This document shows positions 44,115-60,111 of a stretch of DNA of 64,000 nucleotides, piece by piece. The DNA comes from Paraburkholderia fungorum (GTDB lineage: Bacteria; Pseudomonadota; Gammaproteobacteria; Burkholderiales; Burkholderiaceae): NCBI RefSeq assembly GCF_900099835.1, contig NZ_FNKP01000002.1, forward strand, positions 2,790,001-2,854,000, given 5' to 3'. How positions within the stretch are numbered: the first letter of the stretch is position 1; every line of letters begins with the position of its first letter. The notes under the pieces were generated by a model. The model had not been told where the DNA came from, made no database searches, and was given only the letters and a program-made list of their open reading frames with translations. Position numbers and translations under genes: made by a program.

Positions 44115-45518
44115 TCAAGCCTCCAGTTGCTCCAGCACCTTGCCCTTGGTTTCGATCCCCAGGAAATGCACCGCAAGCGCAGCGACAAACGGCACCGCTG
44201 CAAGAATATAAAACGCCACCTGCAGATTCCCGCCGATCATCGTCTTCGACACGATGGCCGGTGCGAAAATCGCCGCCACCTTGAGCCACGCGCCGCCGAC
44301 TCCGCAACCCATAGCGCGGATGCTGGTCGGGTACAGTTCCGGCGTGTACACATAAGCCGTGATGAAGCCGCAAGCGAGGAAGCCGAGCGCAAACGCGCAG
44401 AACGTCGCGACAACATACACCGACGATTCGTGGAACACCCCAGCCAGCAGCAACGAAACAGCGCACGCCACGAACGACACGTTGATGATCGGCTTGCGTC
44501 CCACCTTATCGACCAGCAACGCGCAGGTCAGCGAACCGAGCACGCCGAGCACCGAAGCGGCCACCGCCAGATTCAGCGCGAGTTGCAGCGGCGCGTGATA
44601 AATCGTGCGATAGATGGTCGGCAGCCACGTCGACAGCCCGTACTGAATGAAGCCGCACGTGATCCACAACATCGCGACGGCCAGCGTGCGCTTCAGATAC
44701 GCGGGACCGAACAGATCGGCCATCCGGCGCTTCGGATGACGATTCGCCATCGCGTCGAATTCGGCGGAATTCGTGACCGGCGGCAACGGACCTTTGGCTG
44801 CACGTTCGAATGCCTGAACCGCTGCATCGGCTTCGACCATCCGCTCACGTTCGGCGAGCCAGCGCGGCGATTCCGGCACGAGCTTGCGCAGCACGAAGAA
44901 CAGAATCAACGGCATGCCGCCGATGAAATACATCGCCTGCCAGCCGAAGCGCGGCACGATCCACGCGCCCAGCGCATTCGACGCCAGCAGTCCAACCGGG
45001 AACACGATTTCATACAGCAGCACGAAACGCCCACGCCCATGCGCGCGGCTGATTTCGTTGATATACGTCGCGGCCACCGGCAATTCGCCGCCGAGCCCCA
45101 AACCCTGAATCACGCGCAGCGCGACGAATACGGCGAACGTCGGCGCAAAACCGCATGCAATACTCGTAATGCCGATAATCCCCGAGCTCAACGCAATCGC
45201 GCGCACGCGGCCCTTGCGTTCCGCGTACCAGGGGAACACGAACGCGCCGATCAACTGGCCGACCGAGCCGGAGCCGATCAGAAAGCCGATTTCCCACGGC
45301 GTCAGGTGCCACTTCGCGATCAGGATCGGCAGCGTGGCCGCGATCGCGATCACGTCGAAGCCGTCGAAGAACGTCGCGAGACCGATCAGGATACGCGCGC
45401 GCACCTGCATCGCATTCGCCGGCATCCGCTCGAGACGCGCGATGATCGAGCCCCGGGTCACGGGACCTGAGACACCGGCGCTGCTGCGGTCCCCCAATGT
45501 GTTGTCGATGGTTCTCAT
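44115..45518 (-). CDS. MFS transporter, aromatic-acid:H+ symporter type
   Basis: This 467-residue, 12-helix permease carries the DGFD motif (Asp52, Asp55) in the first helix, which in PcaK-type aromatic acid symporters is needed for uptake. The loop 2-3 motif (YAERKGRVRAI) and the segment GLGLGGELPVAATYINE are standard for the family. The substrate is probably an organic or aromatic acid. It is the last gene of the Rieske catabolic operon, 25 bp after the ferredoxin reductase, and is followed by a terminator. Confidence 0.9.
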   Translation of the reverse strand: MRTIDNTLGDRSSAGVSGPVTRGSIIARLERMPANAMQVRARILIGLATFFDGFDVIAIAATLPILIAKWHLTPWEIGFLIGSGSVGQLIGAFVFPWYAERKGRVRAIALSSGIIGITSIACGFAPTFAVFVALRVIQGLGLGGELPVAATYINEISRAHGRGRFVLLYEIVFPVGLLASNALGAWIVPRFGWQAMYFIGGMPLILFFVLRKLVPESPRWLAERERMVEADAAVQAFERAAKGPLPPVTNSAEFDAMANRHPKRRMADLFGPAYLKRTLAVAMLWITCGFIQYGLSTWLPTIYRTIYHAPLQLALNLAVAASVLGVLGSLTCALLVDKVGRKPIINVSFVACAVSLLLAGVFHESSVYVVATFCAFALGFLACGFITAYVYTPELYPTSIRAMGCGVGGAWLKVAAIFAPAIVSKTMIGGNLQVAFYILAAVPFVAALAVHFLGIETKGKVLEQLEA

Positions 45519-45543
45519 GCCGTGGTGCCGTCCGTAGATGTGG

Positions 45544-46809
45544 TTAGGCCAGTGCCGTCGAGGCGTCGGTCAGGGTGGCAAGGTCGATCGTGCGGCCCTG
45601 GTTCATCCACTTGCGCGACAGTTTCAGTTCGCGCGGCGTGTTGATAGCGATCACGCCGCGAATCGCGCCGTCTTCCAGATGGAACAGCGTCGCGCGTTTG
45701 CCGGGCAGGTCGCCGCGTACGGCGAGTTGCGCGTCGCCCGGAATGTCGCCGAGGATCTGCAGATTGACGTCGTATTGATCGGACCAGAACCACGGAATAT
45801 CCGCATACGGTTCGAAGGTGCCGAGCAATGCCTTCGCTGCTGCAATCGCCTGGTTCTGCGCGTTGGCCCACGATTCGAGCCGCACGCGGCGCTTCAACCA
45901 CGCGCTCGGATGATTCGCGACGTCGCCGCACGCGAAAATGCGCGGGTCGTCGGTGGCGCCGAAGTGATCGACGACGATGCCGTCGTCCACCTTCACGCCC
46001 GCCGCTTCAGCCAGCGCCGTATGCGGCGTGAGACCGATACCGGCCACCGCGAAATCGGCGTCCAGCGTCGAGTCGTCGGCGAAGGTGGCGCGAATGCGGC
46101 CGGCGTCGTTCGGGTGATCTTCGAGCTTGACGAGCGATGCGTTCAACCGCACATCCACGCCATTGCCGCGATGCAACTCCAGCAGGAAATCGGAGACCAT
46201 CGGCGGCAACGAACGTGCGCACAGACGCGGTGCGCCTTCCACCACCGTTGCGTCGACGCCGAGCTTGCGCGCGGTCGCCGCCACTTCGAGACCGATCCAG
46301 CCGCCGCCGACCACCAGCACGCGCTGGCTCGAACGCAGACGTTCGCCGAGCGCGACCGCTTCATCGAGCGTACGCAGATAGGCGATATGCGAGGTCTTCA
46401 CGAGCGACTCCGGCAGCTTGCGCGCCGCGCCGCCCGTGGCGATCACCAGACGGTCGTATTGCACTTCACGACCCGACTGCGTGCGCACGATGCGCTGCTC
46501 GCGATCGATCGAACTCGCGCAGTCCGGCTGCCACGCTTCGACATTCAGCGCGTCGAAATCGTCCGGCTTCACGAGCCGCACGGTGTCGATATCCGCTTCA
46601 CCGGCGAGCACCGCTTTCGACAGCGGCGGCCGTTCGTACGGCAGATGCACTTCGTCGGCGATCATCACGAGACGGCCGTCGAAGCCTTCCTTGCGCAATG
46701 TCTTCACGACCCAACCCGCCGCCTGGCCGCCGCCGATCACGACGATCGTGCGCGGTGCTTCGAGTCCGGCATGCGCGGCTTGCGCCTTTTCAGTGGCAGC
46801 GTCAGTCAT
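45544..46809 (-). CDS. FAD/NAD(P)-dependent ferredoxin reductase
   Basis: This 421-residue reductase would pass electrons from NAD(P)H to the Rieske ferredoxin. It has the FAD-binding start IVVIGGGQAAGWVVKTLR, the NAD site VLVVGGGWIGLEVAATARKLG and the second FAD motif IFACGDVAN, followed by the C-terminal reductase domain (about 330-415). It matches reductases of multicomponent ring-hydroxylating oxygenases. It overlaps the VOC gene by 8 bp. The overlap and shared operon make the oxygenase encoded at 55.7-56.8 kb its likely client. Confidence 0.93.
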   Translation of the reverse strand: MTDAATEKAQAAHAGLEAPRTIVVIGGGQAAGWVVKTLRKEGFDGRLVMIADEVHLPYERPPLSKAVLAGEADIDTVRLVKPDDFDALNVEAWQPDCASSIDREQRIVRTQSGREVQYDRLVIATGGAARKLPESLVKTSHIAYLRTLDEAVALGERLRSSQRVLVVGGGWIGLEVAATARKLGVDATVVEGAPRLCARSLPPMVSDFLLELHRGNGVDVRLNASLVKLEDHPNDAGRIRATFADDSTLDADFAVAGIGLTPHTALAEAAGVKVDDGIVVDHFGATDDPRIFACGDVANHPSAWLKRRVRLESWANAQNQAIAAAKALLGTFEPYADIPWFWSDQYDVNLQILGDIPGDAQLAVRGDLPGKRATLFHLEDGAIRGVIAINTPRELKLSRKWMNQGRTIDLATLTDASTALA

Positions 46810-47767
46810 TTTTGCGCTCCGTCATGAACTTGCCTTCCGGCGCCTTCGCATTTTTCTGCCGACGCGTATTGCCGTCGATGCCGCCGTCGATCGCCCATTC
46901 GGCGAACACCGTCGGACCCGGCTCGAAATCGCGCGGTTGCCAGTCGGGCGTGAGCTGGTCTTCATCGGCGTAATACTCGATCAAACCGCCAGCCGGATTC
47001 TGGAAGTACCAGAAGTACGCCGACGACACCGGATGACGTCCCGGCCCGAGTTGCGTATCCCAGCCGCAGCGGCTGATATGCATGCCGCCGCCAAACACTT
47101 CGTGGATATCGCGCACGGTGAACGCGACGTGATTGAGACCGCGCTTTCCGTTGGGCAAAGCCAGCAGGAAAATGTCGTGGTGGCCACCGTGCGGCGCGCA
47201 GCGCATGAATGCGCCACGACCCGGATAGCGGTCCGACATTTCGAAGCCGAGCAGTTCCTGGTAGAACTTTTCCTGTTCGGCGAGCTTGTTCGTGAAGAAC
47301 ACGACGTGTCCCACTTCGACCGGCTCCGCGCGTTCGTAGATCGGCGAAGGCTGATCGACACGCAGCGTTTGACCCCACACGTTCGACGGCGAACCGTGCA
47401 CGTCGAGCGCCCGCTTGCGGGTCACTTCGACGCGAATCGCCATACCGTTCGGGTCGATGCAGCCGACCGCGTTGTCGGTTTCGAAATGGCCCGGCTGACC
47501 GGCGAAGCGGCCGCGCAGTTCGTCGAGTTCGGCTTTCGTCGCGACGCCCCAGGTCACTTCGCGCAGCGTCGGACCTTCTTCGAACGCGGGCGGCAGCGAC
47601 GGATCGTTCGCCTCGACGGCGAGAATCGTGCAGCCGTTCAGCGTTTCGAAGCGCGCGTGGGTTTCGTCGTGCGCGGTTTCTTTCAAGCCCCAGTCCGCGA
47701 AAAAGCGGCGGCAGGTGGCGAGATCCGTCACGCCGTAAATAATCTGTTCAATGCCGAGAATCGTCAT
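46802..47767 (-). CDS. VOC-family type I extradiol dioxygenase-like protein
   Basis: This 321-residue protein has two VOC modules. The C-terminal module holds the expected metal triad His154 (VGHVVFF), His213 (LNHVAFT) and Glu264 (GLIEYYAD), with spacing as in type I extradiol dioxygenases such as BphC, plus His197 and Tyr254 in active-site-like positions. Ring cleavage of a catecholic intermediate is the likely role, but VOC isomerases or hydrolases are possible. It overlaps the reductase gene by 8 bp and follows the aldehyde dehydrogenase by 18 bp. Confidence 0.87.
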   Translation of the reverse strand: MTILGIEQIIYGVTDLATCRRFFADWGLKETAHDETHARFETLNGCTILAVEANDPSLPPAFEEGPTLREVTWGVATKAELDELRGRFAGQPGHFETDNAVGCIDPNGMAIRVEVTRKRALDVHGSPSNVWGQTLRVDQPSPIYERAEPVEVGHVVFFTNKLAEQEKFYQELLGFEMSDRYPGRGAFMRCAPHGGHHDIFLLALPNGKRGLNHVAFTVRDIHEVFGGGMHISRCGWDTQLGPGRHPVSSAYFWYFQNPAGGLIEYYADEDQLTPDWQPRDFEPGPTVFAEWAIDGGIDGNTRRQKNAKAPEGKFMTERKND

Positions 47768-47785
47768 AACGTGCCTCTTGCGTAT

Positions 47786-49276
47786 TCAGTTCGCCCACGC
47801 CAGCGGCGCGTCGTTCAAGCCCCAGTAGAGGCTCTTTTGTTGCATGTATTCGCGGATGCCGAGCCGGCCTTTCTCGCGTCCCATGCCGCTCTCTTTCCAG
47901 CCGCTGAACGGCGTCGAGATCGAGAACAGCTTGTACGTATTGATCCAGATGGTGCCGGCTTCTAGCGCGCGGGCGATCCGGTAAGCGCGCTTGTAGTCGC
48001 GCGTCCAGATGCCGGCGGCGAGGCCAAACACGCTGTTGTTCGCGTCTTTCAGCAGCGACGCTTCGTCGTCGAACGGCATCGCGACCAGCACCGGCCCGAA
48101 GATTTCTTCCTGGCAGATGCGCGCGTCATTGGTCAGGCCTTCGAGAATCGTCGGCTGGAAATACGTGCCCTGCTCGCGGCCGTCGCCGACCGGACGCTCG
48201 CCGCCGCACAGCAGACGGCCACCCTCTTCGAGACCAAGGGCGACGTAACGCTCGACCGTTTCGCGATGCGCTGCGGTAATCAGCGGACCCATTTGCGTTT
48301 CCGCACGCGACGGATCGCCGACGCGCAGCTTGCGTGCGCCTTCAGCGAGGCGCTTCATGAACGTGTCGTAAATCGAGCGCTGCACGAACAGACGCGAGCC
48401 CGCGATGCACGCCTCGCCCGACGAACTGAAGATGCCGTACAGCACGCCGTTCACGGCGTGGTCGATATCGGCGTCGTCGAACACGATGGTCGGCGACTTG
48501 CCGCCGAGTTCGAGCGACACCGGCATCAGCTTGTCCGCCGCGATGCGCGCAATGCCGCGGCCCACTTCGGTGCCGCCCGTGAACGACACCTTCTTCACCA
48601 GCGGATGACGCACCAGCACGTCGCCGATCACCGAACCTTTGCCCGGCACCACGCTCACGACACCCTTCGGCACACCCGCCTCTTCGCAGATGCGCGCCAG
48701 CGCCAGCGAGATCAACGGCGTGACTTCAGCGGGCTTCAACACCACCGCGTTGCCGCCTGCGAGTGCGGGAGCGAGCTTCTGCGCGTCGGACGCGATCGGC
48801 GAATTCCACGGCACGATGGCCGCGATCACGCCGATCGGCTCGTAGATGCTCATCGTCAGATAGTCGCCGCGCGACGGCGTGACTTCTTCGTCCAGTGTTT
48901 CGAGGCAGGCTGCGAAATAGCGGAACGTGTTCGCCGCGCTCGCCACCAGCACGCGCGTCTCGCCGATCGGCTTGCCGTTGTCGCGGCGCTGCAATTGCGC
49001 GAGCGCTTCGTGACGCGCCATGATCAGATCGGCGATGCGGTACAGAATCAGCGCGCGTTGATGCGGCTTCAGACCTGACCAGTCCGCTTTACGCCACGCG
49101 ATATCGGCGGCTTCAATGGCGTCGCGGGCGTCGTCGGCATTCGCCGTCGAGATTTCCATGTTGACCGACTGATCCGCCGGATACAGGCTTTTGTACGGGT
49201 TGCCACGCCCTTGCCGCCATTCGCCGCCGATAAAAATATCGCCGTTGGGCACGAGGCTGGTATCGAAGTGAGTCAT
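47786..49276 (-). CDS. NAD(P)-dependent aldehyde dehydrogenase
   Basis: This 496-residue ALDH has catalytic Glu256 (VSLELGGKSP) and Cys290 (SSGEACIAGSRLFV), with the cofactor stretch SFTGGTEVGRGI between. Full length for the family. It would oxidise a semialdehyde or aromatic aldehyde intermediate of the operon's pathway. It lies between the aspartate dehydrogenase (44 bp gap) and the VOC gene. Closest functional types are hydroxymuconic semialdehyde and betaine aldehyde dehydrogenases, but the substrate cannot be settled. Confidence 0.93.
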   Translation of the reverse strand: MTHFDTSLVPNGDIFIGGEWRQGRGNPYKSLYPADQSVNMEISTANADDARDAIEAADIAWRKADWSGLKPHQRALILYRIADLIMARHEALAQLQRRDNGKPIGETRVLVASAANTFRYFAACLETLDEEVTPSRGDYLTMSIYEPIGVIAAIVPWNSPIASDAQKLAPALAGGNAVVLKPAEVTPLISLALARICEEAGVPKGVVSVVPGKGSVIGDVLVRHPLVKKVSFTGGTEVGRGIARIAADKLMPVSLELGGKSPTIVFDDADIDHAVNGVLYGIFSSSGEACIAGSRLFVQRSIYDTFMKRLAEGARKLRVGDPSRAETQMGPLITAAHRETVERYVALGLEEGGRLLCGGERPVGDGREQGTYFQPTILEGLTNDARICQEEIFGPVLVAMPFDDEASLLKDANNSVFGLAAGIWTRDYKRAYRIARALEAGTIWINTYKLFSISTPFSGWKESGMGREKGRLGIREYMQQKSLYWGLNDAPLAWAN

Positions 49277-49320
49277 GTCGGTCGTTCCGGTTTGCTTCAG
49301 CTAATGTCTTAACTCGGGTC

Positions 49321-50151
49321 TCAAATCACGCAGCGGGCTGCACGATTGCGCAACGCGCGAATCGCGCTGTACGCGGTCAACGCGGACGTCTTCGGGTTGT
49401 CCGGCAAAGGCTTGCCGCACATTTCCAGCGACATCTCGCCGAACACGCCGCGCGCCACGACGCGATGCACGTTGCGCGTCACGTTCGGATCGGCGATCAG
49501 GCGGACCGTGGTGTGGTCGAGGCCCAGACCGGCAAGCGCGATCGTCGCCGCCACGTTGGCGTTCTTCGGATAGAGCCGCGCCGCTTCGCGCGCGCTGCCT
49601 TCGAAGATCACCGTTTCTTCGGTGAGCGCGTTCAGATCGCACACCAGTTCGGCGGGTGAGCCGAGCCAGCCCGTGGGCGGCTTGCGGCCCGTGTACAGCA
49701 CTTCGTCGAGGCCGCCGAGCTTGGCTGCGGCCAGCGCGTCCACGCCGCCAATCGCGCCGGACAACAGCGTGAGCGTCGCGTCGCCTTCGTCGGCGGCAGC
49801 GGAGAGTGCGTCGAGCAGCATCATGTCGGACAACGCACCGATCGATGCCACCGCGCAATCCGTGCCGCCCTTCAGCAACGGCACCACGTGATCGACCAGC
49901 GCGCTATGACCCGCGCATTCCAGCGCGAAATGCGGCTGGCTGCTCAACGCGGACACCGACGTGACCACGTCCACCGAGTCGCCTACCACTTCGCGCACCG
50001 ACGCCATATGACGCTCCGACACGATCACGTGCGACACGCGCACGGTCGGATCGGCGGCAACCGAGCGATACACCGCCTGGCCGATCGCGCCGAAGCCGAT
50101 CATCGCGACATCGACGGGAGCGTGGTGACCCGCGTAGCCGGCGTCACGCAT
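49321..50151 (-). CDS. nadX: L-aspartate dehydrogenase family protein
   Basis: This 276-residue protein has the NAD fold [16 protein letters not shown] (residues 15-30), ECAGHSA, the [18 protein letters not shown] segment and the family hallmark [17 protein letters not shown]-aspartate dehydrogenases interconvert aspartate with iminosuccinate/oxaloacetate plus ammonia and NAD(P)H. In some bacteria they feed NAD synthesis, but no nadA or nadC is here. Instead the gene overlaps the ThDP enzyme by 8 bp inside a Rieske operon, which suggests a catabolic role, such as handling an imine, amino acid or ammonium released from the substrate. An alternative dehydrogenase or cyclase activity is possible. 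Confidence 0.88.
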
Positions 50152-51802
50152 GTTCCGGCTCCTGTTCCTTGACCGGCGGGCCTGCGAACGCGGTAGCGAA
50201 CGAGCCGACCGACAGCATGTCCACTTCGACCAGCACCGGACCCGCCTTCGCGATGCCTTCGCGAATGATCGCGTCGGCCTGATCGAGCGACTTGATGCGG
50301 TAATGCGTGAGCTTCAGGCTCTCGCAGAACTGCGCGAAATCCGGCTGATGCAGATCGACGTAGCAACGACGGCCGCCGTATTGCGCGTCCTGAATGTTGC
50401 GGATCACGCCGTAGCACTGGTCGTTCATCAGCACGATCATCACGTTGGCGTTTTCCTGCACGGCCGTCGCCAGTTCGCCGACGTTGACCATCAGGCCGCC
50501 GTCGCCGACCAGGCACACCGTCTTCGCCGCGTTGCCCGCGAGCGCCGCACCGATGCCCATCTGCATGCCCTGGCCGATACCGCCGCCGAGTGCGTGGACG
50601 CCCGCGCGCGGCGAGAAAATCTTCAGCATGCGGTTGCCCCACGTGCTGTTCGAGATCGTGACGTCGCGCACCCAGTTGTAGTCGCGGCCCACTGCGGCTT
50701 GCAGCGCGTCGACGAGGCGCTTGTACGGGCCGAGACCCTTGCCCACGTCGGCGACCGCGCTTTCGCGAGCTGCCGCCAGGTCTTGCGCGAACTTCGGATC
50801 GACCTTGATGCGGCCTTCGAGCAGCGTCGCGAGTTCTTCGAGCACGGCCGATGCATCGCCGTGAATGAACATCTCGTTGCGATAGCCGCGGTTATCGGCG
50901 AGCGCGTCGGCGTCGATCCGATACAGCGGTTGCGGCAGCGCCAGCTTGTACTTCAGCGTCTCATTGCCACGCAGACGCGAACCGACCACCACCAGCGCGT
51001 CACACGTCTTGTAGAAGCTCTCGACCGCTGCATGCACGTTGAACGCGCCGAGCGTCGCCGGATGATCTTCCGGCAGCACGCCGCGGCCCTGCACGCTGGT
51101 CACCACGCCGAAGCCCAGCGCCACCAGACGCTCGACCGCCTTCGCAGCATGGCGCGTGCCGCCGCCGAGCCACAACAGCGGACGCTTCGCGTTGACCAGT
51201 TGCTCGGCCAGTTGCGCGACGCGCTGGCTGCAATGCGTGAGCGTCGTGACGTGCGGGGCGGCCAGATCGGCGGGCCACTCCACTTCCGCAGCCTGAATGT
51301 CGATTGGAATTTCGACGCTGACCGGACCGCTCGGTGCGGTTTGCGCTACGCGCACGGCTTCGCGGATCGTCGGCAGCGCGGTTTCGACCGAGCGCACACG
51401 GAACGCAGCCTTCGAAATCGACGACAGCATCGACAGTTGATCCGGTGCTTCGTGGATATACGCGAGGTCCTGATCCAGATATTCGGTTTCGATCTGACCG
51501 GTGACGTGCAGCAGCGCCGTGCCTGCCGTCAGCGCTTCGACCATTGCGCCCGCTGCGTTGCCCGCTGCGGTGCCGGTGCTGGTGAACGCCACACCGAGGC
51601 CGCCCGAGACACGCGCGAGGCCGTCGGCCATGTTGACCGCGCCGGCTTCGCCGCGCGCGCCGACATAGCGGATCTTGCCGCGGTTATGAATCGCGTCGAG
51701 GATCGGCATGTTGTGAATCGAGATCACGCCGAATGCGGTTTGAACGCCGCATTGCTCGAGGAAAGCGGCGATCAGTTCGCCAACGGTGGTTTTGTTAGAC
51801 AT
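50144..51802 (-). CDS. ThDP-dependent decarboxylase/lyase (acetolactate-synthase-like)
   Basis: This 552-residue enzyme has the three ThDP-enzyme domains: PYR (1-170, catalytic Glu52 in [13 protein letters not shown]), middle (190-325) and PP (370-530, cofactor motif GDGG at 433-436 ending in MND at 459-461). It resembles the acetolactate synthase/benzoylformate decarboxylase superfamily but lies with no small subunit, so a dedicated decarboxylase, lyase or carboligase of the pathway is likely. The ATG at 51802 overlaps the SDR stop by 8 bp. The stop overlaps the aspartate dehydrogenase start by 8 bp. Confidence 0.9.
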
Positions 51803-52601: not shown

Positions 52602-53485
52602 CAGAGCCCCAGTGCCTTCATGTATTGGCTGCCCGCATTCGGCGCGTTCTTCGGCCGATAGTTGAGCCGCTGCGAAAGTTCATCGGCCGCGCGGCGGACC
52701 TTGTCGATCAGGCCGCTGTCGAGCAGCGACGCGTCGATCTCGTGGCGCGGAATCGTCGTCGTGATGACCGCGACGATGCGCCCCGTGTCGTTGCGAACCG
52801 GCACGCTGACCACCGAAATGCCACGTTCGAACGACGACTCGCTGATCGCAAAACCACGCAGTGCGTCGTCGCGCACACGCTCATAGAGGTCTTCGACGGT
52901 GGCGGGCGTCTGCTTCGTGAAACGCTCCAGTTCCGGCTCGGGATAGAGCTTCTTCAGATCGTCGAGCGTCATGTCGCCCATCAGCACCTGGCCGTGCGTC
53001 GTTGCATAAGCGGGCAGACGGGTGCCGACGTTGACCTTCACCGAACTGAAAATCGGCGCATGGCTTTGTGCTTTGGCAACGAAGACGACATCACGTCCGT
53101 CGCGAATCACGATGTGCGTCGTCAGGCCGGTTTCGGTGCGCAATGCTTCGATGATCGGCAGACCGAGGTCGGTCAATTCGAGCGAACTCAGATATTCGAA
53201 ACCGAGCCGCAGCACGGCGACGCCGAGCCGATAGTTACGGTCTTTGTCGGCGCGTTCGAGAAAGCCGAGCGATTCGAGCGTTTGCAGCAGACGGAACACC
53301 GTCGTGCGCGGAATCTTCAGGCGGCGGGACAATTCCGGCGCGCCGAGGACGGGCTCGCGCGGCGAGAACTCCGTGAGAATCTTCAAACCACGTTCGAGAC
53401 CCGGCACGCGGTAGCTGCTGTCGCTACCGGTGTCGTTGCGGTCGTCGTCCGCGTTGCGCTCGGCGTTGAGTGTGTCGGGCGTCAT
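52601..53485 (-). CDS. IclR-family regulator embedded in the catabolic operon
   Basis: This 294-residue regulator has an N-terminal winged HTH (about 27-90, VPGLERGLKILTEF, then LSRRLKIPRTTVFRLLQTLESLGFLER) and the IclR effector domain (about 105-275, with GTRLPAYATTHGQVLM and FERGISVVSVPVRN). It is a clear paralogue of the regulator at 59143-60111. It lies directly between the hydrolase (no gap) and SDR genes (1-nt overlap), so it should be produced with the enzymes and autoregulated. The palindrome in front of the operon is a candidate target. Confidence 0.94.
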   Translation of the reverse strand: MTPDTLNAERNADDDRNDTGSDSSYRVPGLERGLKILTEFSPREPVLGAPELSRRLKIPRTTVFRLLQTLESLGFLERADKDRNYRLGVAVLRLGFEYLSSLELTDLGLPIIEALRTETGLTTHIVIRDGRDVVFVAKAQSHAPIFSSVKVNVGTRLPAYATTHGQVLMGDMTLDDLKKLYPEPELERFTKQTPATVEDLYERVRDDALRGFAISESSFERGISVVSVPVRNDTGRIVAVITTTIPRHEIDASLLDSGLIDKVRRAADELSQRLNYRPKNAPNAGSQYMKALGL

Positions 53486-54376
53486 TCATTGGCTCCGTTG
53501 TCCACCGCTCGTGCGGCAGAACGTGTCGATGATCGCGGTGTACGCGGCGGGTGCTTCGATATAACCGGCGTGCCCCGCGCGCGGCACGACCTGCAATTGG
53601 GTGCCTGCGGCAAGGGCGATTCGCTCGCAGGCGGCGGGAGGCGTGATGGTGTCGTCCGCGCCGACGGCCACGTTGATGCGGCCTGTGAAGCGCGCGAGGT
53701 CGCTGGCGAGGTCGGCGTTGGCGAGCAGATGCGTCGCCTGCGCGTAGCCGCGCGGGATCACGCGCGACATGTTCCAGCGCACCCATACGCGGGCTTCGTC
53801 GTTTGCATTCGCGGACAACATATTGGTGCTGCGTTTTTCGGCGAGACCTTGCGGGCCGAGTTCGTTCAGCATCGCGAGGCGCTGGTCGCGTTTCGTTTCG
53901 CGCACTTCCGCAGATGCCGCGCCGTAGCCGCCAGCCGGCGACAACAGCAGCAAACCGGCCACGCGCTGCGGATTCGCCGCAGCAAACGCACCGGCGATGA
54001 TCGCGCCGAGCGAGTGCCCGACCAGCACGCATCGTTCGATAGCGAGTGCGTCGAGCCAGTCCTTCAATACCGAGGCGTAGTGAGCGGCCACGGGCGACTC
54101 TGCGTCAACCGGCGTGGACGCGCCATAACCCGGCGCATCCCACGCCAGCACGCGACGGTTCGCGGCCAATACTTCGAACTGCTGCACCCACGACGCCGCG
54201 CCCGACCCGATACCGTGCAACAGCACGAGCGGCAACGCGCCGGTGTTGGCGCTCGCGGCTTCGCGATAGCTCAGCACACGTTGCGACGCCAACTCGACCT
54301 GCTGCGCCGGAAAGCGCGCGAGGCGCGTTTCGAGCGAGGCGTGTTGATCGGCGGTAACGGACGGGACTGCGGACAT
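53486..54376 (-). CDS. Alpha/beta hydrolase (meta-cleavage hydrolase-like)
   Basis: This 296-residue hydrolase has the oxyanion start LLHGIGSGAASW, nucleophile Ser in LVGHSLGAIIAG, acid Asp in VGADDTITPP and His in RAGHAGYIE. It resembles the MhpC/BphD group that hydrolyses C-C bonds of ring-cleavage products, which would fit the VOC dioxygenase in the operon; ester or lactone hydrolysis is the alternative. AAGGAAATC precedes the ATG at 54376. A longer open frame to 54508 is not supported. Confidence 0.9.
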   Translation of the reverse strand: MSAVPSVTADQHASLETRLARFPAQQVELASQRVLSYREAASANTGALPLVLLHGIGSGAASWVQQFEVLAANRRVLAWDAPGYGASTPVDAESPVAAHYASVLKDWLDALAIERCVLVGHSLGAIIAGAFAAANPQRVAGLLLLSPAGGYGAASAEVRETKRDQRLAMLNELGPQGLAEKRSTNMLSANANDEARVWVRWNMSRVIPRGYAQATHLLANADLASDLARFTGRINVAVGADDTITPPAACERIALAAGTQLQVVPRAGHAGYIEAPAAYTAIIDTFCRTSGGQRSQ

Positions 54377-54429
54377 GATTTCCTTCGCGGGTGTTTTTGT
54401 ACTGCTGCGAATCAGACTTCGATAAGGGC

Positions 54430-54957
54430 TTAGCGCTTGAGCTTCGCCAGCGGCGAATCCGGCGGATACGTCGGCGTGACCGGCTTTGGCGAACCGAGCA
54501 TCACGCACATCAGCGCGTCTTCTTCGCCGATGTTGATTTCCGTGCGATACACGCCCGGCGGCACCGAGATCAGGTCACGCTCGCCGAGCACGGCTTCCCA
54601 CGTTTCGCCGTCTTTCTCGCAGATCACTTTCATCTTGCCGCGCAGCACGAAGAAAATTTCTTCGACATCCATATGAATATGGCTCGGACCGATGTTGCCG
54701 GCCGGGATCACCATCGTCGAAAACGTGAAGCCGCCTGCGGGCACCGTGTTCATGTCCTTCGCGACGCCCGTGCCGCCCGTGCCGACATAGCGCATTTGCG
54801 CACGGCGATATTTCGGGTCGTAGTCCGCTTGGAACTTCAACGCGTCCCAGTCGTAGCGACGCGTTTCAAGGCGCGCGACGCGGCTGTCAAGCCATTGTCC
54901 AAAGCTCGCTTCCGCGGGTTGTTCCCACGATTTGCGTTCGATATCGGCATCCGCCAT
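54430..54957 (-). CDS. Cupin-domain protein of the catabolic operon
   Basis: This 175-residue protein has a C-terminal cupin barrel (about 85-160) with motif 1 SHIHMDVEEIFFVLRGKM (His, His, Glu) and motif 2 VPPGVYRTEINIG. It could be a metal-dependent isomerase, dioxygenase or sensor. The N-terminal 80 residues (SWEQPAEASFGQWLDSR, then RYDWDALKFQADY) are an extra segment I do not recognise. AAGGAGAA precedes the ATG at 54957. It stands between two operon genes, 26 bp after the second SDR. Confidence 0.87.
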   Translation of the reverse strand: MADADIERKSWEQPAEASFGQWLDSRVARLETRRYDWDALKFQADYDPKYRRAQMRYVGTGGTGVAKDMNTVPAGGFTFSTMVIPAGNIGPSHIHMDVEEIFFVLRGKMKVICEKDGETWEAVLGERDLISVPPGVYRTEINIGEEDALMCVMLGSPKPVTPTYPPDSPLAKLKR

Positions 54958-54983
54958 CTCTTTCTCCTTTCGATTCGACAAGA

Positions 54984-55751
54984 TCAATTCATCACGAAGC
55001 CGCCGTTCACCGGCAGCAACTGGCCGGTTACGAAGCGCGCGGCATCGGACAACAGGAACAACACGGGCCCGGTCACATCGTCGGGCACCTGAGCGCGCGT
55101 CAAAGCGCGGCCTTGCAGGTAATACTGATGACGTTCGGCAGGCACGTAAGCGGTCGCTTCGACTTCGGTCAGGCCTGGCGCGATCGCGTTGACGGTCACC
55201 TGATGCGCGCCGAATTCACGCGCCAGCGAGCGGGTCATCGAGATCACGGCGCCCTTGCTCGCGACATACGCGAGCAGTTTCGGCGCGCCCCACATCGCCG
55301 TATCCGAAGCGATATTGACGATGCTGCCGCGGCCCGACTCGCGCAGAAACGGCAGCGCGGCTGTGCTCATCAACCAGACACCGCGCACGTTCACGTTCAT
55401 CACGGCGTCCCACGTATCGACCGACAATTCGTCCGCGAACTTGCCGCCGGAGTTGGTGATCGCCGCGTTGTTGATCAGCGCGTCGAGGCCGCCGAGTTGC
55501 GCCGCGCCCTGCTCCGCGAATTGCTGGATGCTTTGCGGATTCGCCAGATCGAGCGGCAGATACGTCGCCGCATGTCCTTGCGCTGCGAGCGATGCCGCGA
55601 GTGCCTGACCTTCTTCATGCAGCACGTCGCCGAACACCACTTTCGCGCCGACCGCGACCAGCGCGCGGACAAACGCCGCGCCGAGACCGCGCGCGCCGCC
55701 CGTCACGAGGACGCGTCGGCCGTTGAGCGCTGCGAGCGCGTCGTTATGCAT
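54984..55751 (-). CDS. SDR family dehydrogenase (candidate dihydrodiol/alcohol dehydrogenase)
   Basis: This 255-residue classical SDR has the cofactor motif VTGGARGLGAAFVRAL, Asp-containing FGDVL (NAD preference likely), NNAAIT, catalytic Ser in NIASDT and the intact pair in AYVASKGAV. It overlaps the oxygenase alpha-subunit gene by 8 bp, so it is a natural candidate for rearomatising a cis-dihydrodiol or oxidising an alcohol formed by that oxygenase. Confidence 0.93.
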   Translation of the reverse strand: MHNDALAALNGRRVLVTGGARGLGAAFVRALVAVGAKVVFGDVLHEEGQALAASLAAQGHAATYLPLDLANPQSIQQFAEQGAAQLGGLDALINNAAITNSGGKFADELSVDTWDAVMNVNVRGVWLMSTAALPFLRESGRGSIVNIASDTAMWGAPKLLAYVASKGAVISMTRSLAREFGAHQVTVNAIAPGLTEVEATAYVPAERHQYYLQGRALTRAQVPDDVTGPVLFLLSDAARFVTGQLLPVNGGFVMN

Positions 55752-56841
55752 GGCTGTGGCCCGCTTCGGCGGTTTGACCGGCTCCCGCTTGCGCCTGAAC
55801 TTGCGCGCGATGCGCGTCGAGATCGGCGAAATGCTGTTGCGCGCGCTGACGCAGCATGCGGCGCACGCGCGTCATGCCGACGTCGTGCTGATAAAGGAAC
55901 TCGTGTTCGCGTGCATTCGGCGCGAGGCTTTCCAGCACGTAGCGGTCTTGCTCCAGCACGTCCCAATGCAGACCTTCCAGACGATTGCGATACAGGAAGC
56001 GCCATGCGTCGCGCTGCCAGCCCTGCACCTTGCGGGTACGCCAGAAATACACCTGGCAGTTGTCGCCGTCGGTCGGAACCGCGAAGCCGATGATCCCGAA
56101 GCTGCCGCCCGGGCCGAACTTCTTCTTGTACGGAATCGCGAGGCGCATCCACAGCGCGCCGGTTTCGCCGAGTTCCACCCAGTCGAAGTTCACGTCGCGC
56201 TGGCCGACCTTTTCGAACATCAGACCGGTTTCGGTCTTGCGCACGCGCATGTCGGCCTGCTTATCGCCTTCGGCCATCGAGTGCGACGTCGCGTGCAGAT
56301 ACGCGCCGTGCATCGGGTCCATCACGTTGTCGATGGCGTACTGATAGTTGCACTTCCAGTTCGACATGCACAGGAAGCTCGCGTATTCCTCGCCGACCAG
56401 CTCTTCCGGCAGCTTGAGCGGCGCGGGTTCCTTATGCGCTTCGTCGCCGAACCACAGGAAGATCGCGCCGGCGTGTTCTTCGACCGGATACGACTTCACG
56501 CACTTGGTGCCTTCGAGCGGGCACGCCGACACGGCCGGCACGCGCTGCACGGTGCCGGTGCCGTCGACTTCGATGCCGTGATACCAGCACGCGACGCTGC
56601 CGCCGAGGTTCCAGCCGAGCGACAGACGCGCACCGCGATGCGGGCAGCGGTCTTCGAGTGCGCGGACCTGGCCTTCCTTGTCGCGCCACAGCACGATCTG
56701 GTCGCCGAGCCGCGTGATGCCGACCGGCGCGTCGCCGACTTGCCAGCTCGGTGCAACGGGATACCAGTAGTTACGCAGGCCTTTGTCCAGGTAGGACTGG
56801 ATCGGGTCGGCCGAGCCTTGAGTTGTAGTGGGGGACGTCAT
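55744..56841 (-). CDS. Rieske non-heme iron oxygenase alpha subunit
   Basis: This 365-residue oxygenase has the Rieske ligands Cys66, His68, Cys85 and His88 (CPHRGARLS, CWYHGI) and the iron triad in DNVMDPMHGAYLH (Asp175 bridge, His178, His183). No beta subunit gene is present, so an alpha-only trimer like phthalate- or carbazole-type oxygenases is expected. Ring dihydroxylation, monooxygenation or dealkylation are possible. The ATG at 56841 has GGAG 9 nt upstream; the long open extension before it is Arg/Pro-rich and antisense-like. Its donors are the ferredoxin and reductase of the same operon. Confidence 0.94.
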   Translation of the reverse strand: MTSPTTTQGSADPIQSYLDKGLRNYWYPVAPSWQVGDAPVGITRLGDQIVLWRDKEGQVRALEDRCPHRGARLSLGWNLGGSVACWYHGIEVDGTGTVQRVPAVSACPLEGTKCVKSYPVEEHAGAIFLWFGDEAHKEPAPLKLPEELVGEEYASFLCMSNWKCNYQYAIDNVMDPMHGAYLHATSHSMAEGDKQADMRVRKTETGLMFEKVGQRDVNFDWVELGETGALWMRLAIPYKKKFGPGGSFGIIGFAVPTDGDNCQVYFWRTRKVQGWQRDAWRFLYRNRLEGLHWDVLEQDRYVLESLAPNAREHEFLYQHDVGMTRVRRMLRQRAQQHFADLDAHRAQVQAQAGAGQTAEAGHSHA

Positions 56842-56900
56842 AAGGAGACTCCGGGTACGAAAGCGATGAAACGTGTTCGCGGGTGTTCGAGGGGGCGCGC

Positions 56901-57197
56901 CTAGTCGGCGAGCAGGCGGAATTCGGCGGCGAGGCGCTCGGCGTCCCACGGCTGGCCTTCCGGGGTGCGGAAGCCGACGCGGTTCAGACCGTCGACGACT
57001 TCCTGCAACTCCATCGCGCCGGCTTCGAAAACTTTTTCGAGCGCATCGCCGAAGTCGTTTTCGTACTGGGTCGGTTCGGCCTTGCGGTTCTGCCAGACCA
57101 TGTTTTCCTGCTGGCCCGGTTTCTCGATCACGCCCTTGCCGGCGACGTTGTTCGGCTGCGGCGCGAGCCACGGCTTCAGGAAAGGATTGAAGTTCAC
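56901..57197 (-). CDS. Recombinase-like HTH domain small protein
   Basis: This protein of about 98 residues starts at a GTG (57197, preceded by GAGAGGT) or at an ATG at 57212. It begins NFNPFLKPWLAPQPNNVAGK and ends in VVDGLNRVGFRTPEGQPWDAERLAAEF, which resembles the HTH 'recombinase' domain of serine recombinases, but the catalytic domain is absent. It sits between the ferredoxin and oxygenase genes, 1 bp after the ferredoxin stop if the ATG is used. In that position it may be an oxygenase assembly factor, a small subunit or a regulator. Its function is unknown. Confidence 0.82.
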   Translation of the reverse strand: MNFNPFLKPWLAPQPNNVAGKGVIEKPGQQENMVWQNRKAEPTQYENDFGDALEKVFEAGAMELQEVVDGLNRVGFRTPEGQPWDAERLAAEFRLLAD

Positions 57198-57213
57198 GGC
57201 TACCTCTCGCATG

Positions 57214-57528
57214 TCATGCCACCTTGATCTGGATTTCTTCGCCCGCAAGACGTACCGAGTACATCTTCAGGTCGCGGCCGCCGGGCTCTTTCAGACATTT
57301 GCCGGTGGGGATATGGAACACGGCTTCGTGCAGCGGACATTCGACGGTGTCGCCGTCGACGAAGCCCTGCGTCAGCAACGCGTATGCGTGGGGGCAGACG
57401 TTTTCGAGTGCGTACAGCTCGTCGCCCACTTTGTAGATGCCGATTTCCGTGCCGTCGAGTTTGAACTCGAGCGGCGCGTCTTCGGACAGGTCGCCGGCAT
57501 GGCCGGCGCAGCGCCATTGATCAGTCAT
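57214..57528 (-). CDS. Rieske-type ferredoxin of the oxygenase system
   Basis: This 104-residue [2Fe-2S] Rieske ferredoxin has ligands Cys45, His47, Cys64 and His67 (VCPHAYALL, ECPLHEAVFH). It belongs to the BphF/CarAc-like carriers that shuttle electrons from a reductase to ring-hydroxylating oxygenases. It is the first gene of the leftward catabolic operon; the -10 box, the palindromic operator and the start codon lie within 70 bp. Confidence 0.95.
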   Translation of the reverse strand: MTDQWRCAGHAGDLSEDAPLEFKLDGTEIGIYKVGDELYALENVCPHAYALLTQGFVDGDTVECPLHEAVFHIPTGKCLKEPGGRDLKMYSVRLAGEEIQIKVA

Positions 57529-57552
57529 TTCTCGCCTTCTCCTGAATCTCTA

Positions 57553-57572
57553 TGTTCCACCTAAGGAACATC
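57553..57572. promoter_or_regulatory. 20-bp palindromic operator before the catabolic operon
   Basis: ATGTTCC-ACCTAA-GGAACAT is a perfect 7-bp inverted repeat 25 bp upstream of the ferredoxin start and just downstream of the predicted transcription start, a position suited to repression. Its 12-bp segment ATGTTCCACCTA recurs as an exact inverted copy at 57845-57856. Two IclR regulators are encoded around it; binding by either is inference. Confidence 0.75.
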
Positions 57573-57589
57573 AGTTCGTGTATGGATAA

Positions 57590-57595
57590 TTATAG
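57590..57595 (-). promoter_or_regulatory. Predicted -10 box of the catabolic operon
   Basis: On the minus strand a perfect TATAAT lies about 60 bp before the ferredoxin start. The region 17 bp upstream is a T-run, not a good -35 element, so an activator or a strong UP-like AT-tract may be needed. Confidence 0.6.
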
Positions 57596-57721
57596 GATTG
57601 GCTTGATGAGGAAAAAAATAAAAATCTGGAGCTGTAGGGGAAAACACCGACTGTCGTGTCCGCAACACAGCATTGCGCGGTGTGGCGGGAATCCGCTTAT
57701 GCGTTTCAAAGCCTTTGGGGA

Positions 57722-57819: not shown

Positions 57820-57822
57820 TTT

Positions 57823-57856
57823 CCATAGGCGATACAGAAGCCCATAGGTGGAACAT
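57823..57856. promoter_or_regulatory. Operator region before the porin: direct repeat plus inverted copy of the catabolic operator arm
   Basis: CCATAGG(C/T)G occurs at 57823-57831 and 57842-57850, with a 19-bp period (about two helical turns). The second repeat runs into TAGGTGGAACAT (57845-57856), the exact reverse complement of 12 bp of the catabolic operator. Shared motif and placement suggest that porin and operon are controlled by the same or related regulators. Confidence 0.65.
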
Positions 57857-57968
57857 AAAGCGGTGCGGTTTTGGCGCATTAAAACCAGAACGGCAATCAA
57901 CCCCAATGCAAGGATCAGGGACGGCCCATTGGCGAGATCCAGGGTCGTATGATCAGGAGAACCAAACG

Positions 57969-59042
57969 GTGAAGCACATCATTGCAGCCGGCTTGACGGC
58001 AATCTGCGCAACGACGGGCGCGTGGGCGCAGAGCAGTGTGACGCTATACGGCAGCCTGGATGCCGGTATCGCGTATGTCAGCAACGTAGCAGGCAGTTCG
58101 AAATGGATGATGGAGCAGGGCAACACGCAGCCTGATCGCTGGGGCCTGAAGGGTGTCGAAGATCTGGGCGGCGGGCTGAAGGCGATTTTCCAGCTTGAAA
58201 ACGGCTTCTATACGAACACGGGCGCATTCGCGAAATCGGGCACGCTGTTTAATCGCCAGGCTTTCGTGGGGTTGAGTTCGGACAAGGTCGGCACGGTCAC
58301 ACTCGGTCATCAGACGCCGTTCAGCTTCGACGTGCTCGGCCCGCTGAGCACCGCTTATCTGGCCGCCAGCTGGTACGCGTTCCACCCGGGCAACATCGAC
58401 TCGCTCGCCGACACGGGCGTCGTGCCCTACGACAACTCGATGAAATTCCGCTCGACGAATTTCGGCGGCTTCACCGTCGGCGCGATGATGGGTCTCGGCA
58501 ACACGACGAACTTCGCGACCGGCAAAAACCTGAGCTTCGCGCTGACCTATGCGAATGGCCCGTTCAAGGCCGGTGCCACGTATGCAGCGGAGAACGACCG
58601 CACGCCATCGCTCGTCACGACCGGTCTCGCCACGTTCCAGGGCGTAGCGTCGGCGAACTATGTCGCGGACAAGGTGCAGAACATGGGCGCGGGCGCGTCA
58701 TACCAGTTCGGCAAGCTGCTGGTGCATGGTCTGTACACGCGCGTGAAGCTGGAATCGGCGGGGCATTCGGACACGTACCAAAGCTACGATGCGGGCGCGA
58801 ACTATCAGTTCACGCCGTTCAACACCGTGGCCGGCGGCGCTGCGACGACGACGCTCGCGGGGCACCGCTGGACGCAGTTCATGATCGGCGACGTGTATTC
58901 GCTGTCGAAGTCGACGCAGTTGTATGCGAACGCGCTGTACATGCGCGCAGGATCGAACACGGACGCTGCTTTCTTTACCGCAGGGGTATCGAGCGGACGC
59001 AACCAGACGATTCTGCTGGCCGGTATTCACCACTCGTTCTGA
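57969..59042 (+). CDS. OpcP-type Gram-negative porin
   Basis: This 357-residue outer-membrane porin starts at a GTG (57969) preceded by AGGAG, with signal KHIIAAGLTAICATTGAWAQ and mature start SSVTLYGSLDAGIAYVSN. The segment DRWGLKGVEDLGGGLKAIFQLENGF and the terminal Phe (HHSF) are standard for the 16-strand general porins of Burkholderia. It is divergent from the catabolic operon and shares operator motifs with it, so it is a candidate specific uptake channel for that substrate. Confidence 0.94.
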   Translation: MKHIIAAGLTAICATTGAWAQSSVTLYGSLDAGIAYVSNVAGSSKWMMEQGNTQPDRWGLKGVEDLGGGLKAIFQLENGFYTNTGAFAKSGTLFNRQAFVGLSSDKVGTVTLGHQTPFSFDVLGPLSTAYLAASWYAFHPGNIDSLADTGVVPYDNSMKFRSTNFGGFTVGAMMGLGNTTNFATGKNLSFALTYANGPFKAGATYAAENDRTPSLVTTGLATFQGVASANYVADKVQNMGAGASYQFGKLLVHGLYTRVKLESAGHSDTYQSYDAGANYQFTPFNTVAGGAATTTLAGHRWTQFMIGDVYSLSKSTQLYANALYMRAGSNTDAAFFTAGVSSGRNQTILLAGIHHSF

Positions 59043-59084
59043 ACACGTTGTGATGTGACGCAATCGTGATGTGATGTGATTGAC

Positions 59085-59119
59085 GCAGGTCCGTGCTGCG
59101 ATTTTTCAGCCGGACCTGC
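59085..59119. terminator. Hairpin between convergent porin and IclR genes
   Basis: GCAGGTCCG at 59085-59093 pairs with CGGACCTGC at 59111-59119; inner GCTG/CAGC extends the stem after one bulge. The loop contains T5. No T-run follows on either strand, so termination strength is uncertain. Confidence 0.5.
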
Positions 59120-59142
59120 AAGCGCACAAACCGCAAGCAGAA

Positions 59143-60111
59143 TCAGTTCGCCGACACCGGTTTGCTGCGAGCCTGAACCACTGTCGGATCGTCCGGCCTC
59201 GGGCGATAGCTCAGACGCTCGGACAAGTCGAGCGCCGCCTGGCATACCTGCACGATGAGCGGTTCGCGCTCCTCCGCCTCGCCGATATCCGAACGCGGAA
59301 TCGTCACCGTCAACGCCGCGACGATCTTGCCGCTCTGATCACGCACGGGCGCGCTCACCACCGAAATGCCCCGTTCGAACGACGCCTCGCTCAACGCGTA
59401 GCCGAGCAGCGCACTTTCGCGCACCCGTTCAGACAGTTCATCGACGGTAGCGGGCGTGCGCTCGGTGAATCGTTCGAGTTGCGGCTCGGGATACAACTGA
59501 CGCAATTCATCGAAACTCAGATCGCCCATCAGCACCTGGCCATGCACGGTGGCGTGAGCGGGCAGGCGCGTGCCGACATGCACCTTCACCGAACTGAACA
59601 TGGGCTCGTGGGTTTGCGCCTTGGCAACAAACACCACGTCGCGCTGATCGCGAATCAGCAGATGCGAACTGAGGCCGGTTGCATCGCGCAATTGTTCGAG
59701 GATCGGCGTGCCGACGTCGGTCAATTCGAGCGAACTCAGATATTCGAAGCCGAGCCGCAACACCGCGACGCTCAGCCGGAAATGACGGTCGCCGTTCACG
59801 CGCTCCAGAAAGCCGAGCGCTTCGAGGGTTTGCAGCAAACGGAAGGTGGTCGTGCGCGGAATGCCGATCCGCTTCGACAACTCGGGTGCGCCGAGTACCG
59901 GCTCGCGCGCGCTGAACTCAGCGAGAATCCGCAAGCCGCGTTCGAGGCCTGGTACGAGATAGGTCGAGCCGCCGCTGCTCTCGTCATCGGCGGGATCGGG
60001 GGTGTCGGGAATGTCGGCAGCAGGCGCCAGGGACAACGCGGTGTCGTCCTGCGCCGCGCCTCGTGATTTCGCCTGTTTGCGTCCCGCTCCGGTCTGTTCT
60101 TCTTTGGCCAT
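59143..60111 (-). CDS. IclR-family regulator, paralogue of the in-operon IclR
   Basis: This 322-residue regulator has a 45-residue disordered, charged N-terminal tail, a winged HTH (about 50-115, VPGLERGLRILAEF, then LSKRIGIPRTTTFRLLQTLEALGFLER) and an IclR effector domain (130-300). It is so similar to the IclR at 52601-53485 through both domains that they must be recent paralogues. It faces the porin convergently. It may sense the same or a related compound, perhaps as activator where the other represses. Confidence 0.94.
   Translation of the reverse strand: MAKEEQTGAGRKQAKSRGAAQDDTALSLAPAADIPDTPDPADDESSGGSTYLVPGLERGLRILAEFSAREPVLGAPELSKRIGIPRTTTFRLLQTLEALGFLERVNGDRHFRLSVAVLRLGFEYLSSLELTDVGTPILEQLRDATGLSSHLLIRDQRDVVFVAKAQTHEPMFSSVKVHVGTRLPAHATVHGQVLMGDLSFDELRQLYPEPQLERFTERTPATVDELSERVRESALLGYALSEASFERGISVVSAPVRDQSGKIVAALTVTIPRSDIGEAEEREPLIVQVCQAALDLSERLSYRPRPDDPTVVQARSKPVSAN

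Follow-up and report, generated by a model that had tools for sequence, protein, structure and literature searches.

An alpha-only Rieske oxygenase operon of Paraburkholderia fungorum as a candidate module for kynurenate catabolism

What does a bacterium degrade with an operon that joins a Rieske oxygenase and an extradiol dioxygenase to a thiamine diphosphate-dependent (ThDP) enzyme and an aspartate dehydrogenase (AspDH)? This question is raised by a module in a 64,000-nucleotide stretch of DNA from Paraburkholderia fungorum, here called the window (C2:2790001-2854000 in a genome of 8.58 Mb on four contigs). We suggest that the module probably takes up and degrades kynurenate (4-hydroxyquinoline-2-carboxylate), and we hold with considerable confidence that its substrate is some quinoline carboxylate, kynurenate included. 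A kynurenate substrate would explain the mixture of ThDP enzyme and AspDH with Rieske and extradiol enzymes, which a preliminary description of this DNA had found odd. The wider proposal, that the module supplies the genes of the kynurenate pathway, with a lower route common to soil Burkholderiales, Klebsiella and Acinetobacter baumannii, has in our estimate a somewhat better than even chance of being correct.

Kynurenic acid is a product of tryptophan that is also active in animal brains and guts. Its degradation by pseudomonads is said to have been described by Hayaishi and Dagley in the 1960s (EC 1.14.99.2, 1.3.1.18 and 1.13.11.10). In these bacteria, kynurenate is converted via the 7,8-dihydrodiol to 7,8-dihydroxykynurenate, and cleavage between C8 and C8a gives a 4,6-dihydroxypicolinate whose side chain, an oxo acid, is converted first to an aldehyde and finally to an acid. 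To our knowledge, the pathway is known from enzymology without genes, its enzymes having been orphans since the 1960s. No gene assignment for breakdown of the kynurenate ring was found among the papers listed from the open-licence literature; subscription papers lie outside that coverage, and a published assignment may exist.

Operon architecture and the Rieske oxygenase system

Fourteen minus-strand genes form one leftward run from 57528 to 44115, in the order Rieske-type ferredoxin (Fdx), HTH_62 protein, Rieske oxygenase (RO), classical short-chain dehydrogenase/reductase (SDR2), cupin, alpha/beta hydrolase (ABH), IclR1 regulator, atypical SDR (SDR1), ThDP enzyme, AspDH, aldehyde dehydrogenase (ALDH), VOC-type extradiol dioxygenase, FAD ferredoxin-NAD reductase (FdR) and MFS transporter. 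The spacings from Fdx to MFS are 1, 59, -8, 26, 53, 0, -1, -8, -8, 44, 18, -8 and 25 bp, all below 60 bp (range -8 to 59) and with four 8-bp overlaps. Directly past the MFS gene lies an intrinsic terminator (44030..44085, minus strand), where a hairpin of -30.7 kcal/mol (z -4.67; 0 of 200 shuffles as stable) is followed by a U-rich tract. Spacings and hairpin bear out the tightly packed, terminated leftward run of the preliminary description. Its count of 14 genes stands once the small HTH_62 (PF20552) gene is counted, while its 475-amino-acid oxygenase open reading frame (ORF) is over-long, the initial 110 residues overlying the HTH_62 gene in a different frame. The likely start of RO is the ATG at 56841, giving 365 amino acids; the cupin and ABH genes probably start at 54957 and 54376, respectively, and an alternative start of the ThDP gene is possible at 51826. 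Gene identities were assigned by Pfam and NCBIfam profile searches, and these agree with the families named earlier for the Rieske set, the VOC enzyme, the hydrolase, both SDRs, the cupin, ALDH, the ThDP enzyme, AspDH and the MFS transporter.

The oxygenase system consists of Fdx (57214..57528; PF00355, 1.9e-19; AndAb model 84.7 bits, under the cut-off of 150), the alpha-only RO (55744..56841; PF00355, 2e-22; PF19112, 7.9e-14) and FdR (45544..46809; PF07992, 2.4e-64; PF14759, 2.8e-23). RO keeps both Rieske motifs (Cys/His) and the D-x2-H-x4-H site, and residues D175, H178, H183 and D299 are invariant in 33 sequences. With RO, Fdx and FdR in one operon and the metal-ligand residues invariant, the system is at the sequence level a multicomponent Rieske dioxygenase, complete in its three components as had been claimed; we propose that it acts as a kynurenate 7,8-dioxygenase. 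Between Fdx and RO, in the window and in its relatives, lies the gene for the HTH_62 protein (~56901..57212; PF20552, 2e-25 on 56901-57200), a DNA-binding-like domain that adjoins this oxygenase type in many copies.

Which oxygenase class does RO belong to? Searched with the over-long ORF, it scored above no NCBIfam cut-off (AndAc 21.2 of 750 bits, HcaE 20.7 of 830), and only generic names were present among the 120 matches listed of the 2840 proteins that a homologue search retrieved (E<=1e-40). The single alpha subunit with its VanA_C domain and the scores far under the cut-offs rule out a ring-hydroxylating dioxygenase of the benzoate/biphenyl/anthranilate type. The closest solved relative is the dicamba demethylase DdmC, with an E-value of just 1.5e-23 over residues 22-186. 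Together with the lack of any NCBIfam assignment, this supports the earlier statement that the operon does not encode a standard benzoate, biphenyl, phthalate, anthranilate or salicylate pathway.

The VanA_C domain and the DdmC relationship could be taken to mean that RO is a VanA/DdmC-like O-demethylase of a methoxylated aromatic acid, with the VOC enzyme cleaving the resulting catechol. We consider this improbable, as the similarity to DdmC is weak, with alpha-only oxygenases of other chemistry close behind, and as AspDH, the ThDP enzyme and a diol dehydrogenase would not be needed. Close kinship to a characterised demethylase is wanting. A second gene for a VanA_C-type Rieske oxygenase is present in the window outside the operon (32112-33443), with glycosyltransferase and hydrolase genes nearby.

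A proposed route from kynurenate to aspartate

The remaining operon genes can be arranged into a route in which substrate, reactions and order of steps are what we infer from gene families, conserved residues and layout. The residue alignments comprised up to 21 rows; matches below 80 bits were left out, which dropped the divergent VOC and cupin proteins of several alphaproteobacteria. Kynurenate would be imported by the divergent porin (57906..59042, plus strand; PF13609, 1.4e-47) and the MFS transporter (44115..45518; PF07690, 3.1e-42), which resembles aromatic acid/H+ symporters (TIGR00895, 5.9e-66, below cut-off). Fdx and FdR would pass electrons to RO, which would dihydroxylate the benzene ring and so form the 7,8-dihydrodiol. 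SDR2 (54984..55751; PF13561, 3.4e-56) is the proposed 7,8-dihydrodiol dehydrogenase that would restore aromaticity and yield 7,8-dihydroxykynurenate; its S..YxxSK signature is present in 19/19 rows. The two-domain VOC protein (46802..47767; TIGR02295, 2.4e-21, below cut-off) would then act as 7,8-dihydroxykynurenate 8,8a-dioxygenase, cutting the C8-C8a bond to give 5-(3-carboxy-3-oxopropenyl)-4,6-dihydroxypicolinate. Its His-His-Glu iron ligands are kept in 15/15 aligned rows, and the pair thus carries the residues of a diol dehydrogenase and an iron extradiol enzyme. In this context, the available portion of PMC5610271 cites a paper whose title concerns the enzymatic formation of 7,8-dihydroxykynurenic acid.

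The side-chain double bond would be reduced by SDR1 (51795..52601; NF005468, 470 bits, cut-off 266), a proposed ene-reductase, or by another reductase. SDR1 is not a classical SDR dehydrogenase: YxxxK is absent in 21/21 rows, the Tyr and Lys positions of SDR2 being occupied by Thr and Arg when the two proteins are brought into register by eye. The Thr is replaced, by Ser, in the NK84 row only, which is a 49% paralogue, and the surrounding stretch is strongly conserved. The closest solved structure is Q9HYA2 (PDB 3LF1, 3LF2; E=7e-109), which we take to be a Pseudomonas aeruginosa protein with an atypical catalytic centre and for which we know of no function. Similar gene sets had earlier been mentioned for Cupriavidus and P. 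aeruginosa; the first parallel is seen in Cupriavidus campinensis and the second for SDR1 only, by way of Q9HYA2.

In the following steps the ThDP enzyme (50144..51802; NF005470, 964 bits, cut-off 495) would decarboxylate the 2-oxo acid and ALDH (47786..49276; PF00171, 3.4e-171) would oxidise the resulting aldehyde. The cofactor-activating Glu of the former and the Cys and Glu of the latter are present in all rows, as expected by family and residues for a 2-oxo acid decarboxylase and an aldehyde dehydrogenase. The cupin (54430..54957; PF07883, 2.3e-10; HxH and the following Glu in 14/14 rows) and ABH (53486..54376; PF12697, 1.5e-23; Ser-Asp-His triad kept), a proposed C-C or lactam hydrolase, would together open the pyridone and release N1-C2(COOH)-C3-C4 as iminosuccinate. 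The residual pyridone atoms N1-C2(COOH)-C3-C4(O) make up the iminosuccinate skeleton; its release would need a hydrolase and would leave a product that AspDH could reduce, to aspartate. AspDH (49321..50151) scores above the NCBIfam cut-off for aspartate dehydrogenase/iminosuccinate reductase (PRK13303; NF009826, 528.7 bits, cut-off 479) and has the conserved His in all rows. With their catalytic residues kept, the operon enzymes look active, SDR1 being the exception.

The formulas balance, in that kynurenate taken through the listed steps gives C9H13NO8, which equals glutarate plus iminosuccinate. The weakest step is the last ring opening, both in its division between cupin and hydrolase and in the C5 product, which may be glutarate or an oxidised compound. 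According to the accessible part of PMC11354673, which cites Horibata 1961, pseudomonads turn kynurenic acid into glutamate, alanine and organic acids. Hydrolysis would give glutarate, an oxidised C5 unit would be in keeping with the glutamate reported, and alanine could arise from aspartate by decarboxylation. The gene combination most likely fits one substrate class, a fused benzene-pyridine acid with a carboxylate beside the nitrogen and an oxygen para to it, as in kynurenate. We know of no other meta-cleavage system with a lower pathway through SDR1, ThDP enzyme, cupin plus hydrolase and AspDH.

The neighbourhood of AspDH, ThDP and ALDH genes admits a second interpretation. They adjoin in many copies, in an order that suits shortening of an amino acid to an acid, and a DOPA- or tyrosine-like substrate might be deaminated by AspDH, decarboxylated by the ThDP enzyme and oxidised by ALDH before meta cleavage of the catechol. 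AspDH, as noted, lies above the aspartate dehydrogenase equivalog cut-off with its His kept; dihydroxylation and a diol dehydrogenase would be superfluous for a ring that is already hydroxylated, and the links to tryptophan genes described below would be left without a reason. We therefore give this interpretation little credence. A pathway of the quinoxaline/lumichrome type, resembling Lum of Nocardioides, seems still more improbable. Lum likewise joins a Rieske dioxygenase, an extradiol enzyme, a thiamin-dependent decarboxylase and a cupin hydratase. As far as the available portion of the source describes it, it has an alpha/beta oxygenase (LumC/LumD), a split LumK/LumL decarboxylase, a P450, hydrolases and a xanthine oxidase (LumJ), whereas the window operon lacks this set, LumC/LumD, LumK/LumL and LumJ not being among its families, and no AspDH is described there for Lum (PMC12746152).

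Regulation of the kynurenate module would be the task of the IclR proteins. IclR1 (52601..53485; PF01614, 2.8e-28; TIGR02431, 7.4e-50, below cut-off) is encoded within the operon and IclR2 (59143..60111, minus strand; PF01614, 6.5e-34; TIGR02431 below cut-off) after the porin; both are PcaR/PobR-like, and their presence together with the divergent porin is as the preliminary description had it. They would probably act via an inverted repeat, TGTTCC-N6-GGAACA (57553..57570), which has fdx on one side and, by visual inspection, a TATAAT-like element on the other, and which we propose as an IclR site. A looser form, GTTC-N8..10-GAAC, occurs anywhere in 77/79 intergenic regions (window included), and in all 12 regions for which its position was printed it starts 41-45 bases before fdx. 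Across the window the repeat occurs once exactly and once with one mismatch, where 0.05 would be expected; the mismatched copy is at 33325-33342, inside the ORF at 32112-33443. A promoter scan gave no site before fdx.

Conservation, distribution and possible links to tryptophan genes

The preliminary description had proposed a comparison of gene neighbourhoods across Burkholderiales and Pseudomonas. Among the best 80 of 171 oxygenase relatives, mostly from Paraburkholderia and Caballeronia with 82-93% identity, the order Fdx-HTH62-RO-SDR2-cupin-ABH-IclR1-SDR1-ThDP-AspDH-ALDH-VOC-FdR is intact in 76/80 loci, which rules out chance clustering. Of the remaining four, L042, L044 and L066 are cut by contig ends and L036 is decayed. 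The last comes from a metagenome-assembled genome of a symbiont, in which the hydrolase was not found and the SDR1, ThDP and ALDH matches are split.

Since a class-wide oxygenase search matched the source genome only (1/369 at E<=1e-80), wider sampling used the ThDP gene as marker. By this marker the module is present in 15/398 genomes of the phylum (the source genome included), 29/299 of the G728 family, 10/248 of the G558 family and 2/7 of the G914 genus. We compared 55 neighbourhoods, 49 from genomes found via the ThDP marker and six from named records among the 20 RO matches listed. All nine enzymes (RO, SDR2, VOC, ThDP, ALDH, AspDH, ABH, cupin and SDR1) are present in 36/55, and the eight other than SDR1 in 44/55, with several others cut by contig ends. 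Named carriers include Klebsiella aerogenes, A. baumannii, Caballeronia sp. NK8, Novosphingobium resinovorum and Cupriavidus campinensis as well as Paracoccus, Nitratireductor and Pseudosulfitobacter; the records annotate the module only generically. Paraburkholderia xenovorans LB400 (L003) has the module too. The electron carriers vary: among the 55, Fdx has matches in 12, the window type of FdR in nine and a one-protein VanB-type reductase in 22, and in three alphaproteobacterial records an FAD-oxidoreductase adjoins a flavodoxin-domain protein. Retention of the enzymes despite exchange of electron supply and transporters is what a constant substrate would predict. Module DNA of A. baumannii gave no match in E. 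coli genomes, in a search that sees close DNA only.

The P. fungorum genome holds a second copy of the block on the 503.6-kb contig C4, with 97.8% DNA identity to window positions 46806-57622 in two aligned pieces. This copy (L082, L144, L145, L146; at both contig ends) runs from Fdx to VOC, has a divergent IclR1 (79%) and is without close FdR, MFS, porin and IclR2 relatives. No hydrolase was found in this copy at the place where the contig ends meet, and the gap may therefore be an assembly effect. A fragment with hydrolase, SDR1 and an SDR (L242:12160-14612) lies among other degradation genes and recombinases on pCAR3, which we take to be the carbazole plasmid.

If tryptophan goes via kynurenine to kynurenate, genes of that branch might be expected near the module. 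Such an arrangement is found in G914, which consists of one contig. A gene for tryptophan 2,3-dioxygenase (TDO; PF03301, 251 bits) converges there on the VanB-type reductase gene of the module, their ends 2 bp apart, and arylformamidase (TIGR03035, 285 bits, cut-off 223) comes next, with kynureninase elsewhere (3.40 Mb). In G558, TDO and kynureninase are located ~9-11 kb from the module. These are the only two among 40 genomes holding both genes in which 15 kb or less separates TDO from the ThDP gene, with 0.28 expected (P=0.033; the 15-kb threshold was set after seeing the data). Moreover, in the G728 family TDO is present in 25/29 module genomes vs 58/99 module-free genomes (P=0.007), an excess that genome size may explain. 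If kynurenine is converted to kynurenate, hosts with TDO but no kynureninase match would be expected; this combination is seen in 7/25 TDO-bearing module genomes vs 1/58 TDO-bearing module-free ones (P=0.0007), in a test prompted by the initial 61 genomes and with statistics that ignore kinship. The seven (G788, G821, G825, G845, G915, G921 and G931) represent six of 18 genera, and in the sole module-free case (G841) the TDO score is under the cut-off. The controls were 99 of 270 module-free genomes of the family, 80 of them searched after the idea arose; these fresh 80 alone gave 1/45 (P=0.002).

Accessory genes hint at N-heteroaromatic substrates. A flavin monooxygenase, whose closest solved relative is 6-hydroxynicotinate 3-monooxygenase (E=9e-81), is present in 17/55 neighbourhoods (in G677 ~10 kb off). 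Subunits of molybdenum (Mo) hydroxylases, a class that acts on N-heteroaromatics, occur in 6/55, closer to the module in G677, G605, Cupriavidus campinensis and pNK84 and ~10 kb off in G588 and G885; they are also present in G1273. These enzymes could feed other quinoline carboxylates, such as xanthurenate, quinaldate or a substituted 4-quinolone-2-carboxylate, into the module, with kynurenate or its 7,8-diol merely a shared intermediate in some hosts. In the same direction points a Vibrio nigripulchritudo plasmid (L243:11569-18792) that, in the stretch read, carries only the lower half, without RO and SDR2, as if upper and lower halves were separable; TRAP genes are present, and its ThDP gene is annotated in two pieces. 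The window operon has neither accessory enzyme, and its upper pathway must therefore begin with a compound that RO attacks directly. Another quinoline carboxylate appears unlikely, less so than the other alternatives discussed above.

Two further observations concern the range of substrates. On pNK84 of Caballeronia NK8 (L148:29785-39016), the full module is followed by another Fdx-HTH62-RO-ThDP-VOC set, together with a three-subunit Mo-hydroxylase and an SRPBCC protein; these genes resemble a sister pathway directed at a related N-heteroaromatic compound. The module region of G558 holds a sulfatase gene (L135:8433-9995) with a relative in G688, and a sulfated quinoline substrate is conceivable.

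Several observations weigh against kynurenate as the substrate, or against the route as drawn. Within the module, G1108 lacks AspDH and G416 lacks ALDH, and G966 holds only SDR1, ThDP, AspDH and ALDH (40 kb read in each); SDR1 is missing from 14/55 neighbourhoods, six of them with 40 kb read, and the VOC and cupin proteins are just 24-34% identical in many alphaproteobacterial copies. In G914, a gene of the dihydrodipicolinate synthase (DHDPS) family (L177:6562-7551) lies between the flavin monooxygenase and HTH_62 genes and possibly encodes an aldolase-type alternative lower step, and thus a different lower route. The glutamate and alanine reported for pseudomonads are not literally the proposed glutarate and aspartate. 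The operon itself yielded no gene of tryptophan or kynurenine metabolism, TDO is near the module in just the two of 40 genomes, and the kynureninase test has the origin and the neglect of kinship given above. Kynureninase is present in 28/42 module genomes and 9/42 are without a TDO match, which means that kynurenine takes a different route in many hosts or has none at all; G629 and G517, with modules resembling that of Klebsiella, are among those without TDO and would have to import the substrate. In A. baumannii Ab04, deletion of the Kyn cluster abolished growth on kynurenine, and the accessible text of that study does not mention kynurenate as tested (PMC9162365).

Meaning of the module and comparison with known systems

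If the kynurenate assignment is correct, it supplies genes for a classical pathway known from enzymology and explains a module that has been annotated generically. Bacteria that remove kynurenic acid could then be recognised by anyone from their sequence, and human-associated bacteria could destroy a neuro- and immuno-active metabolite of their host. In the part of PMC5757984 available, A. baumannii A1S_0954, 0956, 0957 and 0958 (hydrolase, AspDH, ALDH and acetolactate synthase-like) are reported as induced by mucin. Their match to the module is one of annotation and gene order rather than of sequence, and their induction may mean that the pathway operates in hosts.

How does the module compare with characterised systems? 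The lumichrome (vitamin B2) operon of Nocardioides simplex resembles it in combining Rieske dioxygenation, extradiol cleavage, thiamin-dependent decarboxylation and a cupin on a fused N-heterocycle; as described in the portion of PMC12746152 available, this actinobacterial system differs in its alpha/beta oxygenase, its two-subunit thiamin enzyme, its other upstream enzymes and the lack of a described AspDH. Dicamba O-demethylase, carbazole dioxygenase and 2-oxoquinoline 8-monooxygenase are, like RO, alpha-only oxygenases and its solved sequence relatives, but they are distant (best E=1.5e-23) and act on other substrates. They also belong to different operons. In meta cleavage of the naphthalene type, a Rieske dioxygenase, a diol dehydrogenase and an extradiol enzyme convert a bicycle into an arylidene pyruvate. 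The same three kinds of enzyme would act on a bicycle in the route proposed here, in which the ThDP enzyme and ALDH take the place of the hydratase-aldolase; G914 has its DHDPS-family gene in addition. In comparison with the kynurenate pathway of pseudomonads, the reductase, ring-opening and AspDH steps are assignments proposed here, whereas dioxygenation, the NAD-dependent diol dehydrogenase, 8,8a cleavage and the aldehyde and acid picolinates each have a matching gene in the operon.

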